A stretch of 64,000 nt of DNA, from contig NZ_JAJKFV010000029.1 of the NCBI RefSeq assembly GCF_020966775.1, forward strand, positions 985,001 to 1,049,000, in the 5' to 3' direction. This document shows positions 46,658 through 51,020 of this stretch, piece by piece; positions within the stretch are counted from its first letter, which is position 1, and every line of letters begins with the position of its first letter. Made by a program: the position numbers and the translations under genes. The notes beneath the pieces were generated by a model that saw nothing but the letters and a program-made list of their open reading frames with translations, was not told where the DNA came from and did no database searches. The stretch is from Rhodopirellula halodulae (GTDB lineage: Bacteria; Planctomycetota; Planctomycetia; Pirellulales; Pirellulaceae).

Positions 46658-47317
46658 GGATCCTAACTCCCCGTTGCAATCTAGCCCCGATTCGATCTCG
46701 ACAGTTCGCGGGTTTCGGCGAACCGTGCTCTTGTAACGTCGTCTTTCAGGTTCCGTTTGGGAACCACGTACAGGAAATTTTTACAGATTTCCTCGGGGTT
46801 TTATTTTTCGCTTCAACATTCTACGCGACCAGCTAGGAATCGGCCCAACTCTTGGCGCGAAGCGTTTGTCCGGGCGCTGTTTGGATCAACGGCTGACCTC
46901 TGACCCGGCCTCGGTCGAGCTGTTGACGTCCACGTCGAGTGATTGCGAGCCATGCGTTCGCGACGTTTGCGTGCACAGTCTGATGGCGCTTCGCAGCGAG
47001 CACCGTTCGAGTCGCCATCGGTTGTTTCTGTGAGGAACTTGAGCGTTTTTCAAAAAAGTCGCCCAGCTTGATGCGCGTTTGATGGCAGTTTCTCGCTTAC
47101 TCAAACTGCATCGGTCCTGGAAAGATGAAGTTTCTGGGATGACTGAACAAAAACTAAGCTTTCTCGGGGCGAATGATTCACCTCATTGTTGACACTGCTT
47201 ACCTGGTACCTACATTTTGGGGTGACGGGCGTCGTTCGCCCAAAGTACGCAGCCGTTAAAGCTTTCCCGTGTTTCTTCTGTTGCCTCACAGGCTGTGAGC
47301 ATTTTGGAGGTTTTTTG
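46658..47317. other. Long intergenic region upstream of the YTV-repeat gene
   Basis: About 660 bases with no protein-like frame. The right-hand 130 bases contain the promoter candidate for the YTV gene; the rest contains AT-rich TTTTTACAG-type sequence and no clear RNA gene or repeat. Confidence 0.5.
47189..47216 (+). promoter_or_regulatory. Candidate sigma-70 promoter of the YTV-repeat gene
   Basis: TTGACA at 47189-47194 and TACATT at 47211-47216 are separated by 16 bases, close to the housekeeping consensus. The start codon at 47318 lies about 100 bases downstream, leaving a leader of about 95 bases. Confidence 0.5.
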
Positions 47318-49660
47318 ATGAGATCGAACGTATTACGGATGTTTCTTGGACTGACAGCGGCGATGCTTTTCGCTGTCAATGTCTACGCAGGATGCGGAGA
47401 TTGTGGTGGCTGCGCAAACGGTGGCGGATGTGTCGCTGATGCCGGTGGTGCCACTGTTGTTGGTGGAGGATACGCAGGTTCTGACGCGTGTGCTCCAGCC
47501 GTTTCCTACCAAACGCAGACGGTAATGCGTTCGCAGTACGTGACTGAAACTCGGATGGTTCCGACGACCACGTACCAACGTCAAACGCAAACCCGCATGC
47601 GTAGTGTGACCAAGCAGGTCGCTCGCGTTGAATCACGCTCGCAAGAGTACACGGTCAACGTGCCTCAAACTCAAACTCGTACGGAAACCTACGACGTTCA
47701 AGTCGCAGTTCCTTACACCGAAGAAGAAACCTACACCGTTCAGGTTCCTGTCACGACCGAAGTCGAACAGTCCTACCAAGTGTCGGTTCCTTACACCGAG
47801 AACGTCGAGCAGTCGTACCAGGTGTGCGTGCCTTACACTGAGCAAGTTGAGCAAACTTACACGGTTCAGGTTCCTGTCACTGAGACCAAGACTCAGACTT
47901 ACACGGTCAACGTGCCTTACACCGAGCAAGTGGAGCAAACTTACACGGTACAAGTTCCTGTTCAACAAACTCGCGAAGAGTCGTACCAAGTGTGCGTGCC
48001 TTACACCGAGAACGTTGAGCAAACTTACACCGTTCAAGTTCCTGTCACGAGCACGCAAACTCAGACTTACCAAGTTTGTGTTCCTTACACCGAAACTTTG
48101 ACTCAAACCTATTCGGTTCAGGTTCCCGTCACGGAAACGAAGACGCAGACCTACACGGTCAACGTGCCTTACACCGAAGAAGTTGAGCAAACTTACACGG
48201 TCAGCGTTCCTGTGACTGAGCAAGTTGCACAAAGCTACACCGTTCAGGTCCCTTACACCGAGCAAGTGGAGCAAAGCTACACCGTTCGCGTTCCTGTGAC
48301 CGAAACCAAGACCGCTTATCGCACCGTTTCGAAGTGCGTTCCTGTGACCACGATGAAGACGGTCACCAAGGACTTGGGCGGATACGAGTGCCAAGCTGTT
48401 GCAGCTGGTGGTGCTTACGGTGATGGCGCTGGCGTCTACGCTGCTGGTTCGGGCTGTGGCTCGTCTTCGGCTTGTGGCGGATGTGCAAGCAGCTGCGGAT
48501 CGTGTGCACCTTGCACCAGCGGATGTGGTTCGTCGGCTTGTGGTGGCGGATGCGGAAGCGTCGCTGCTGCTGGTGCTGCAGCCGGATCGGCTTGTGCTCC
48601 TGCCGTGACCTACCGTCGCGTTTACGTGCCGAACTTGGTCACCGAAGAAGTGCCTGTTACTTCGTACCAGCGTCAAACGGAACAAGTTCCTTACACCTAC
48701 AACGTGACCAGCTACACCACGCAGACTCAAACTCGCATGGTTCCTGTCACCAAGTGCCGTACCGAGACTCGTGAGCGTATGGTCAACGTGACCAAGTACC
48801 AAAACGAAACTCGTACCCGTACGGTTAAGGTTCAAAAGACTCGTCCCGAAGAGCGTACTCGTGAGTACACCGTCACGAGCTACAAGACCGAAACTCGCAC
48901 CCGCGAAGTTCCTGTCCAAAAGACTCGCTTGGAAACTCGCACCCGCGAAATTCCTGTGACGACCATGAAGACTGAAACTCGTACTCGTACGGTTCCTGTC
49001 CAAAAGACTCGTATGGAAACCCGTACTCGTACGGTTCCTTACACGACGATGACGACCGAAGAGCGTACCCGTACGGTTACTGTTCAGAAGTGCCGTCAAG
49101 AAGAGCGTACTCGTGAATACAACGTCACGAGCTACAAGACCGAAACTCGCACGAAGTCGGTTCCTGTGACCAAGACTCGTATCGAGACTCGTACTCGTTC
49201 GATCCCAGTCCAGAAGACCCGCATGGAAACTCGCACTCGCATGGTTCCTCAAACGACCATGACGACTGAAGAGCGTACTCGTACGGTCAACAAGACTCGT
49301 ATGGAAACTCAACAGCGTACTCGCGAAGTTTCGTACACGGTCAACGTTCCTGAAACTCGTACCCGCACCTACAACGTGACTGTCTATGACACCGTCACCG
49401 AAGAAGTGCCAGAAACCTACAGCGTTTGCGTTCCTGTTCAAACGATGAAGGAAGTTCAAGTTCAGGTCTGCAAGCAAGTCCCAACCACTGTTCAAGTTCC
49501 TGTTTACGGTGCTGGTGCTGCTGGCGTTTCGACCGGTGCTGGTTGCACCTCTTGCGGTGGCGCGGCTGCTGTCAGCTATGAAGCTGCTCCAGTCGTCGAA
49601 GCAGCTCCTGCTGCTCCCGTCATGCAAACCGGTGCTGGTTGCACCAACTGCGGTCAGTGA
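47318..49660 (+). CDS. YTV-repeat exported protein with two charge-opposed arrays
   Basis: GGAGG at 47305-47309 sets the ATG at 47318, giving 780 residues; the upstream extension to 47186 is discarded. A signal peptide (FLGLTAAMLFAVNVYAG) precedes a Gly/Cys-rich segment. Residues 111-334 are sixteen units of 14 residues of the form YTVQVPVTETKTQT, alternating VPV and VPY, rich in Glu and Thr. A Gly/Cys/Ser-rich hinge with CGGCASSCGSCAPC follows. Residues 470-651 are thirteen 14-residue units such as TRTRTVPVQKTRME, rich in Arg and Lys. The C-terminus has CTSCGG and CTNCGQ. The repeat is the one known in planctomycetes as YTV. It is likely a beta-rich cell-wall protein with disulfides. Codon bias (ACTCGT, GTTCCT) suggests strong expression. 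Confidence 0.92.
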   Translation: MRSNVLRMFLGLTAAMLFAVNVYAGCGDCGGCANGGGCVADAGGATVVGGGYAGSDACAPAVSYQTQTVMRSQYVTETRMVPTTTYQRQTQTRMRSVTKQVARVESRSQEYTVNVPQTQTRTETYDVQVAVPYTEEETYTVQVPVTTEVEQSYQVSVPYTENVEQSYQVCVPYTEQVEQTYTVQVPVTETKTQTYTVNVPYTEQVEQTYTVQVPVQQTREESYQVCVPYTENVEQTYTVQVPVTSTQTQTYQVCVPYTETLTQTYSVQVPVTETKTQTYTVNVPYTEEVEQTYTVSVPVTEQVAQSYTVQVPYTEQVEQSYTVRVPVTETKTAYRTVSKCVPVTTMKTVTKDLGGYECQAVAAGGAYGDGAGVYAAGSGCGSSSACGGCASSCGSCAPCTSGCGSSACGGGCGSVAAAGAAAGSACAPAVTYRRVYVPNLVTEEVPVTSYQRQTEQVPYTYNVTSYTTQTQTRMVPVTKCRTETRERMVNVTKYQNETRTRTVKVQKTRPEERTREYTVTSYKTETRTREVPVQKTRLETRTREIPVTTMKTETRTRTVPVQKTRMETRTRTVPYTTMTTEERTRTVTVQKCRQEERTREYNVTSYKTETRTKSVPVTKTRIETRTRSIPVQKTRMETRTRMVPQTTMTTEERTRTVNKTRMETQQRTREVSYTVNVPETRTRTYNVTVYDTVTEEVPETYSVCVPVQTMKEVQVQVCKQVPTTVQVPVYGAGAAGVSTGAGCTSCGGAAAVSYEAAPVVEAAPAAPVMQTGAGCTNCGQ
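47648..48319 (+). repeat. Acidic YTV array, sixteen 42-bp units
   Basis: Units are exactly 42 bases in frame and encode YTVxVP[V/Y]TExxxQ[T/S]. Alternation of VPV and VPY produces an 84-base super-period in much of the array. Confidence 0.92.
48725..49270 (+). repeat. Basic TRTR array, thirteen 42-bp units
   Basis: Units encode TRTRxVPVQKTRxE-type sequences on the same 42-base period as the first array but with Arg/Lys in place of Glu/Gln at many positions. Confidence 0.9.
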
Positions 49661-49886: not shown

Positions 49887-51020
49887 TCAGTCGGACGCTT
49901 CGGTCAGCAGGTTCACCGCACGATCGATCTGGTCTCGGCTGGTGGTCCAACCCACCGAGACGCGAATGCAGCGGCCAATTTGTTTGTCGGTGCAGCCGAT
50001 GGCCCGCAGCACACGGGTCATTTCGTCTGGTGGGGATTCTGATTGGGCTGAAGCCAGCACCAAATGTCGTGCGGCTTTTTGAATGCGTTTTGCTTCGACC
50101 GGCATTTGAACGGTGACCGTATTCGGTAGGCCGTCGTTATGCTCTGCAAAAATGGTGACGTTGTCTCCGAGATTGGTTCGCAGCCCGTCAATCAGACGCG
50201 AGCGAAGCTCACGCAGCGTCTCATGAGCATCATTGATGCATTTACCGGCCATGGATGCGGCACACCCGAAACCAACGATGGCGGGAACGTTTTCGCTGCC
50301 CGCCCGAAGTCCCATTTCTCGGCTCTCGCCAAACAAAATCGGTTTCAGTTCCAACCCTCGGCGGACAAATAACGCACCGCTGCCTTTGGGGCCGTACATC
50401 TTGTGAGCACTGATCGCCAACGTGTCGACACCGAGTTGTGTGACATCGATGGGAATCTTTCCAGCCGCCGAAGTTGCGTCGCAATGAACGCGGATGCCGC
50501 GATGGCGACAGCGATCGGCAAGCTCCTGAACAGGTTGATCGGTGCCGAGCACGTGGTTGGCAAGCTGCAGGCAAACCAGCTGTGTCGATTCGCGGAAACG
50601 TTTTTCAAATTCGTCCGCATCCACATGGCCGTTGGAATCACAGGGGACCAGTTCAACGTCCCATCCCATTCGTCCGAGTTGCAGTGCGGCCTGCATCGCA
50701 GCGTCGTGCTCGATCGTGCTGATCAGCAGGTGCGGCGGGCCTTCGACGGGATCGTAAGTTCGGTCACACTCCGCGGCACCGAGGATGCCAAGATTGTTGG
50801 CTTCGGTCCCACCACTGGTGAAGACCAGCTCAAACGGTTCGCAACCGATCAAAAAAGCCACCGATTCGCGGGCGCTTTCGATCGCTTCGTTCACCGCCGA
50901 CGCGTGGACGTGTGATTGCGTCGGCAGCATGAAGTGCGTCGACCAATAGGGCTGCATCGCTTCGATCACCGAAGGAGCCATCGGTGTGGTGCGATTGAAG
51001 TCGAGGTAGATCAGCGACAC
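49887..51020 (-). CDS. NifS/IscS-like PLP protein lacking the catalytic Cys
   Basis: A GTG at 51020 starts a 377-residue protein with the complete class-V desulfurase frame: IYLDFNRTTP, SGGTEANNLG, ISTIEHDA, VHCDATSAAGK, SAHKMYGPKGSGAL with the PLP Lys207, and RAGSENVPAIVGFG. In cysteine desulfurases a mobile loop reads GSAC; the matching place here is LVLASAQSES, with Gln326 where Cys is expected. The persulfide-forming residue therefore appears absent, so it may be an aminotransferase or lyase rather than a desulfurase, or a regulator. No isc or suf genes adjoin. It is convergent with the YTV gene. Confidence 0.9.
   Translation of the reverse strand: MSLIYLDFNRTTPMAPSVIEAMQPYWSTHFMLPTQSHVHASAVNEAIESARESVAFLIGCEPFELVFTSGGTEANNLGILGAAECDRTYDPVEGPPHLLISTIEHDAAMQAALQLGRMGWDVELVPCDSNGHVDADEFEKRFRESTQLVCLQLANHVLGTDQPVQELADRCRHRGIRVHCDATSAAGKIPIDVTQLGVDTLAISAHKMYGPKGSGALFVRRGLELKPILFGESREMGLRAGSENVPAIVGFGCAASMAGKCINDAHETLRELRSRLIDGLRTNLGDNVTIFAEHNDGLPNTVTVQMPVEAKRIQKAARHLVLASAQSESPPDEMTRVLRAIGCTDKQIGRCIRVSVGWTTSRDQIDRAVNLLTEASD

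Follow-up and report, generated by a model that had tools for sequence, protein, structure and literature searches.

A planctomycete YTV repeat protein whose acidic and basic arrays very probably pair as the arms of a giant antiparallel beta-hairpin

The window analysed here, a stretch of 64,000 nucleotides from the marine planctomycete Rhodopirellula halodulae, carries a gene (47318-49660, forward strand) for a 780-residue protein that is very probably a secreted structural protein built as one giant antiparallel beta-hairpin, with residues 63-352 and 440-729 as its arms and the hinge between them as its loop. The 'charge mirror' between its two repeat arrays, the feature singled out in a preliminary description of the DNA, is most likely a sign of pairing across the two strands. 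Sequence comparison and structure prediction support the extended strands, the matched arms, their antiparallel pairing, an approximate register and charge complementarity. Pairing within one molecule rather than by a swap, the length of the resulting rod and its cross-linking by disulfides are what we infer from these, and published proteomics of relatives suggests a role in the wall. The open reading frame, taken from the list of such frames, starts with ATG and has a mechanical TTG alternative upstream and in frame at 47186. Its product matched the Pfam YTV family (PF07639) over 8 stretches (E 8.4e-44; 147.8 bits, cut-off 21), and the source genome of 6.6 Mb has five YTV genes by the same Pfam test. 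The parts of the protein are listed in Table 1.

Table 1. Parts of the YTV protein, with residues, positions in the window and the basis for each.
Feature	Residues	Positions	Strand	Basis and remarks
Putative signal peptide	1-24	47318..47389	+	hydrophobic segment in the translation, by eye; AlphaFold2 helix at residues 2-17; cleavage site putative
N-terminal Gly/Cys-rich segment, 5 Cys	25-62	47390..47503	+	translation, Cys positions
Arm 1, predicted continuous beta strand	63-352	47504..48373	+	contains net-acidic array (residues 113-336; 47654-48325); charge, residue parity, AlphaFold2
Loop base of arm 1	353-362	48374..48403	+	conserved DxG[GS][YW], the aromatic being Tyr356
Gly/Cys-rich hinge, predicted hairpin loop, 10 Cys	363-429	48404..48604	+	translation; AlphaFold2 fragment
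Loop base of arm 2	430-439	48605..48634	+	conserved V[WY]VP (Tyr436)
Arm 2, predicted continuous beta strand	440-729	48635..49504	+	contains Arg/Lys-rich array (residues 475-670; 48740-49327); charge, parity, AlphaFold2
C-terminal Gly/Ala/Cys tail, 4 Cys, and stop codon	730-780	49505..49660	+	translation, Cys positions

The preliminary description had proposed two arrays that share a 14-residue period and differ in charge, and this was confirmed by per-unit net charge, permutation and self-identity. Self-identity at a shift of 14 was 0.58 in array 1 and 0.49 in array 2 (each array was shuffled 500 times, with no value above 0.255), and Tandem Repeats Finder gave 84 bases, or two units, as a period of both arrays and 42 bases as a further period of the first. 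Array 1 holds sixteen in-phase units, as originally counted, with a mean net charge of -1.25 per unit (12 negative, 3 neutral, 1 positive); array 2 holds 14 in phase instead of the thirteen first reported, with a mean of +1.79 (12 positive, 2 neutral). A charge difference between arrays as large as that observed was reached in none of 20,000 permutations in which units were exchanged. The wording 'opposite charge' thus stands for the means, but not for composition: acidic residues are equally frequent in both arrays (1.69 and 1.71 per unit), and the contrast is one-sided, with only Lys/Arg differing, by about three more per unit in array 2 (0.44 versus 3.5). The cysteine clusters described at the N-terminus, hinge and C-terminus are present, with 5, 10 (and 1 more at the hinge edge) and 4 of the 28 cysteines respectively, but a further 8 lie inside the arms.

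Both arms show an unbroken two-residue alternation. Proline occurs only at even residues (18/18 in arm 1 and 16/16 in arm 2), as do most threonines (60/64 and 67/75), while valine (57/58 and 43/43) and Lys/Arg (16/18 and 53/55) fall at odd ones. Over 101 anchored YTV proteins 2670 prolines were even and 21 odd, and Val/Ile parity averaged 0.92 in 536 Gly-poor YTV segments, 79% of which reached at least 0.85, against a mean of 0.60 and no segment at that level among 226 controls (100 residues each, from the other stop-to-stop frames of the 64-kb DNA on both strands). A beta-solenoid is not supported, as the alternation keeps its phase through about 290 residues of each arm and neither of the AlphaFold2 models contains a solenoid.

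AlphaFold2, given the full-length protein and 52 sequences, returned with low confidence (mean pLDDT 49.6, pTM 0.22) two strands of equal length, 63-352 and 440-729; the N-terminal Gly/Cys-rich segment had no strand, and its confidence was mostly low. For residues 276-516 (241 residues, 44 sequences), which is the part of both arms that the confident prediction spans, block means of pLDDT were 90-97 over fragment residues 1-80 and 161-240. The strands of this fragment lie at 2-77/80-88 and 154-162/165-240 in its own numbering, and the hinge between them was disordered, with pLDDT below 50 over protein residues 364-426 (fragment residues 89-151). The pTM of the fragment model was 0.33, and this model spans 241 of the 780 residues. 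The strand ends sum to 242, or 792 in protein numbering, and the predicted register is read from these ends. Taken together, the alternation and the fragment prediction describe two extended strands joined by a loop, at low confidence over the full length, and the single-chain fragment prediction puts both arrays into one ladder rather than into unrelated folds. It is very unlikely that the arrays are instead two independent repeat domains, either solenoids or chains of disordered polyelectrolyte, drawn together by net charge only. Such domains would agree with the opposite mean charge per unit and with the low full-length confidence, but the unbroken alternation, the matching of arm lengths described below and the confident strand pairing near the loop argue against them, and two proteins in which both halves are net basic (L001 and L077) also show the charge register, if more weakly in the test of 16-residue-period proteins.

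To compare arm lengths, the two arms of the window protein were each aligned with their counterparts in 53 window-type homologue rows; the homologues are related, some genes contribute a row from each of two collections, and the counts are not independent. The net length change was identical in both arms in 33 of the 53 rows and agreed within 4 residues in 48. The five remaining rows (L034, L144, L153, L174 and L181), in which equality is broken by 26, represent four distinct genes, L153 being a copy of L034. When distinct arm-length configurations were counted, 17 of 20 matched, compared with a mean of 2.6 and a maximum of 11 in 20,000 shuffles. Independent contrasts of the arm lengths gave r 0.95 with a slope of 0.90 (54 tips, 30 non-zero contrasts; permuted maximum 0.64), and three of the four sister pairs with a length change had changed equally in both arms. 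Landmark-based trials, in which starts or ends were misplaced in part of the rows, gave r 0.87 (53 scored, 135 not) and r 0.68 (49). The matched changes include -2/-2, +24/+24, +26/+26, +106/+106 and -16/-16; since none of these steps is a whole number of units, a change in copy number of the 14-residue units is insufficient on its own to explain them. Odd-sized indels, with those at arm ends set aside, numbered 4 of 237, namely a -9 and a -1 in L162 and again in L166, adding to -10 in each.

The positions of these changes were in part mirrored across the hinge. Aligned same-genus sequences have gaps at 157-170 and at 197-224, with counterparts of the same size at 609-622 and 552-579, in reversed order; L007 and L050 had no size-paired gaps between the arms in this alignment. 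L114, L117 and L122 share two-residue gaps beginning at 190 and 601, and L113 has such gaps beginning at 274 and 517; both pairs of starts sum to 792. L132 lacks residues 288-289 and 505-506, a sum of 794. Other cases were unmirrored: the two-residue gaps of L170 at 262 and 685, whose sum is far from 792, a group of homologues lacking two residues at 719-722 with no partner gap, and a 28-residue insertion in L136, L138 and L139 placed at 128-139 in one arm and at about 465 in the other. The placement of gaps among similar units is uncertain, and the unmirrored cases are hard to judge for that reason. The compensated and partly mirrored indels are evolutionary evidence of strand pairing that is independent of structure prediction. 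That the arms match through a mutational mechanism, such as recombination or gene conversion between the arrays, rather than through pairing, is extremely improbable: both arrays are tandem repeats and share the 84-base period, but they differ in sequence and in charge, matched steps of 2, 24, 26 and 106 residues include several that are mirrored rather than parallel, and the charge register follows the pairing, including the cases displaced by 28.

This register was obtained from a ladder score that counts opposite and like charges at direct and diagonal neighbours across the paired arms. For the window protein the best sum of paired positions (i+j) between 778 and 806 was 794, with a score of -29 compared with -21 at 792. 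Relative to the aromatic anchors, 794 corresponds to a register of +2, an offset picked from the same data and not predicted beforehand, and +2 was the best of 21 even registers in 75 of 103 anchored proteins. A further 81 entries were unanchored or too short, including the window protein and four orthologues that were later added by hand. An earlier anchoring, in which the first anchor was misplaced in many rows, had given +2 as the best register in 33 of 113. L028 and L029, in which a single additional residue in the loop displaces the anchor, were dropped from the tests that follow and from the proline count over 101 proteins. Among proteins with a 14-residue period, +2 scored better in 67 of 72 than registers of the same phase one or two units away, and was the best of 31 registers in 55 of 72; in those with a 16-residue period the signal was weak (16/30, and best of 31 in 5/30). 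Only four proteins (L034, L144, L174 and L181), in which arm 2 is too long by 26-28, had their best register at +30, that is 28 further along, and they constitute an unplanned internal control for the register, the optimum being narrow in all four (for example -5.6 versus -5.0). L160, which also has unequal arms, was best at +28. At register +2 direct pairs of opposite charge outnumbered those of like charge by 1744:230, and aromatic-Arg/Lys neighbours were near their maximum there (2128 at +2, 2164 at 0). For the register, AlphaFold2 and two of the three two-residue gap pairs give 792, whereas charge gives 794. A ladder of disulfides across the strands along the arms was also considered and rejected, as Cys-Cys pairs had no peak at the register (94 at +2, 34 at 0 and 193 at +12).

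In the proposed hairpin each arm would be a single unbroken strand of about 290 residues, and the two would pair over their full length at i+j = 792 or 794. Odd residues would occupy one face (Val, Tyr and Glu in arm 1; Val, Arg, Lys and Glu in arm 2) and even residues the other (Thr, Pro, Cys, Ser and Met), so that Glu of arm 1 would neighbour Lys/Arg of arm 2 and Tyr would neighbour Arg. Antiparallel strands would bring the cysteine segments of both termini together at one end, with the hinge cluster at the other and 8 of the 28 cysteines in between. At about 0.33 nm per residue, 290 residues give a rod of roughly 95 nm, whose Cys-rich ends could be linked by disulfides into a protein wall. 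The preliminary description had suggested that the protein might associate with itself or link head-to-tail with its neighbours, with the cysteine clusters locking the lattice. That idea was well placed in that the arrays do look complementary and the clusters would be located at either end of the structure, but it missed the equal lengths of the arrays and their apparent full-length antiparallel pairing, most simply within one molecule, and a head-to-tail lattice is not needed for the charge pattern. Its nearest counterpart is the same pairing of arm 1 with arm 2 made between two molecules, in which the hinge would be open and a domain-swapped duplex or chain would form. The compensated indels, the mirrored positions and the charge register are silent on which molecule supplies the partner, and cysteine clusters at both ends would suit this arrangement; but AlphaFold2, given a single chain, closes the hairpin with confident arms, and hinge length, taken from landmark to landmark, ranges from 20 to 113 residues across 53 proteins, with only a weak correlation with arm length (r 0.28, some landmarks being misplaced), as expected of a loop. 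We consider the swapped arrangement unlikely.

Regarding the spread of the charge pattern, it was retained in the same-genus orthologues (11 rows, L022-L025 and L027-L033, the near-duplicate L026 being skipped): net charge per 14 residues lay between -0.40 and -0.74 in array 1 (negative in 11/11) and between +0.70 and +1.52 in array 2 (positive in all ten in view), L031 being cut by a contig end. The paralogues of the source genome differ. One has -0.13 and +0.51 in arrays 1 and 2, one runs the opposite way (+0.08 and -0.46), one has a single basic array (+1.32), and in the fifth YTV gene of this genome no array was segmented. A clear split, defined as core halves below -0.2 and above +0.2, was found in 6 of 35 YTV loci from ten single-contig genomes among the matches listed, which may not include all YTV genes. 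The charge mirror was therefore rejected as a rule for YTV proteins; the same-genus orthologues keep it, but most of the YTV loci sampled lack it. In a sample biased by the retrieval of L107-L186 with an array-1-like pattern, 50 of 81 two-array proteins had the mirror, in 77 array 2 was more basic than array 1, and none had both arrays acidic (below -0.2); this count left out 80 of 161 entries (73 without the hinge motif, 6 duplicates and 1 too short). Across the 81, Asp and Glu amounted to 1.61 and 1.58, and Lys and Arg to 1.38 and 2.65, per 14 residues of arrays 1 and 2. Because the orthologues keep the split, the paralogues differ and only 6 of the 35 listed loci have it, the acid/base split belongs to one subfamily, with a more basic second array being common. 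The reversed order, with arm 1 near neutral or weakly basic and arm 2 acidic, was seen in the paralogues L014 (G000:C29:1925k), L216 and L221; in these the charge-complementary register is still clear but lies at 0 instead of +2. Substitutions in 27 homologues gave a mixed picture of selection on charge and are not used here as support: relative to mutational expectation, charge-lowering changes were rarer in array 2 (0.150 versus 0.256) and commoner in array 1 (0.173 versus 0.092), where charge-raising changes were also slightly commoner (0.233 versus 0.192).

For arm matching across the whole family a weaker claim is made than for the window type. Arms of YTV proteins range from about 138 to 394 residues, with landmarks misplaced in part of the rows. 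Among Cys-rich YTV proteins with both landmarks, 12 of 22 rows matched (0/0, 6/6, 16/16 and 136/136, an offset of 2 in the start landmark being allowed); the 10 that did not match at face value mostly had a landmark inside the array or a cut sequence, L071 being unexplained and L182 being of the window type. Thirteen further Cys-rich proteins, several of them window-type, had no landmark. In low-Cys YTV proteins the arms matched in 5/5, and 6 others, three of them window-type, had no landmark. We would put at about even the chances that all YTV proteins are giant two-stranded beta ribbons with lengths of about 45-130 nm, whose register is maintained by matched arms and by charge and Tyr-Arg pairing across the strands, with Cys-rich ends linked by disulfides in a wall of struts and nodes, and with both strands resized together in evolution. 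If so, this joint resizing would be the protein equivalent of the compensatory changes of RNA stems.

YTV matches were found in 96 of 97 genomes of the order, in 14 of 199 of a sample of the phylum and in none of 14 control genomes outside the phylum. The Pfam matches outside the class in L091 and L092 are probably false, as by eye these are Lys/Thr-rich repeats of a different kind of protein, the N-terminus of L092 resembling, again by eye, a prepilin-type protein. L218 (207 residues) and L225 (105 residues), from two genomes, are short YTV-like frames with few units, possibly single arms or remnants. Six loci (L141, L149, L153, L156, L172 and L181) come from records titled 'Candidatus Kuenenia stuttgartiensis' and hold Pirellulales-like YTV genes, suggesting that the names of these metagenome-assembled genomes are probably wrong.

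Planctomycete YTV repeat proteins (PF07639), of which the window protein is a member by Pfam although a clear acid/base split is limited to a subset, have long been known as wall components. In the parts of the literature consulted they are major constituents of the Gemmata wall, as isolated with boiling 10% SDS (PMC5287468), Cys-rich members are reported in wall preparations (PMC8567305) and a YTV protein is among the essential genes of Planctopirus limnophila (PMC10632474). These sources, as far as consulted, deal with location, cysteine and distribution, and in the portions of the open-access literature covered no description of a YTV fold, of paired arms or of matched arm lengths was found. 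The hairpin gives a concrete and testable picture of how such proteins are built, and cysteine-tipped struts of about 95 nm, if real, would explain how planctomycetes could build a wall of protein.

Foldseek returned no comparable hairpin from the PDB: the full model had no hit at E <= 0.001, and the 241-residue fragment had one, with a TM-score of 0.09 and thus no convincing relative. A search of PDB sequences with the fragment profile gave none at E <= 0.1. Chains of solved structures that contain long beta-hairpins, such as the lysenin pore stem and phage tail proteins, head the Foldseek lists and are no convincing match, and no shared function is claimed. These hairpins are far shorter than arms of about 290 residues. 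SMC proteins also form a long rod with functional ends from a chain that folds back on itself, but theirs is an antiparallel coiled coil and alpha-helical, whereas the window protein is predicted to be extended beta.

Of nine neighbouring frames scanned with Pfam, seven had matches (a PAS/GAF/response-regulator protein, a class-V aminotransferase, a SET-domain protein, FliF-like and sulfite-reductase-like proteins, FolD and an S26 peptidase), and there was no hint of a dedicated wall operon among the nine. An antisense open frame of 664 residues runs through the YTV gene (47633-49627, reverse strand) and seems to be a side effect of the codon bias of the repeats. The class-V aminotransferase (49887-51020, reverse strand) adjoins the Cys-rich YTV gene and is transcribed towards it; this family includes cysteine desulfurases, and the adjacency may be due to chance.
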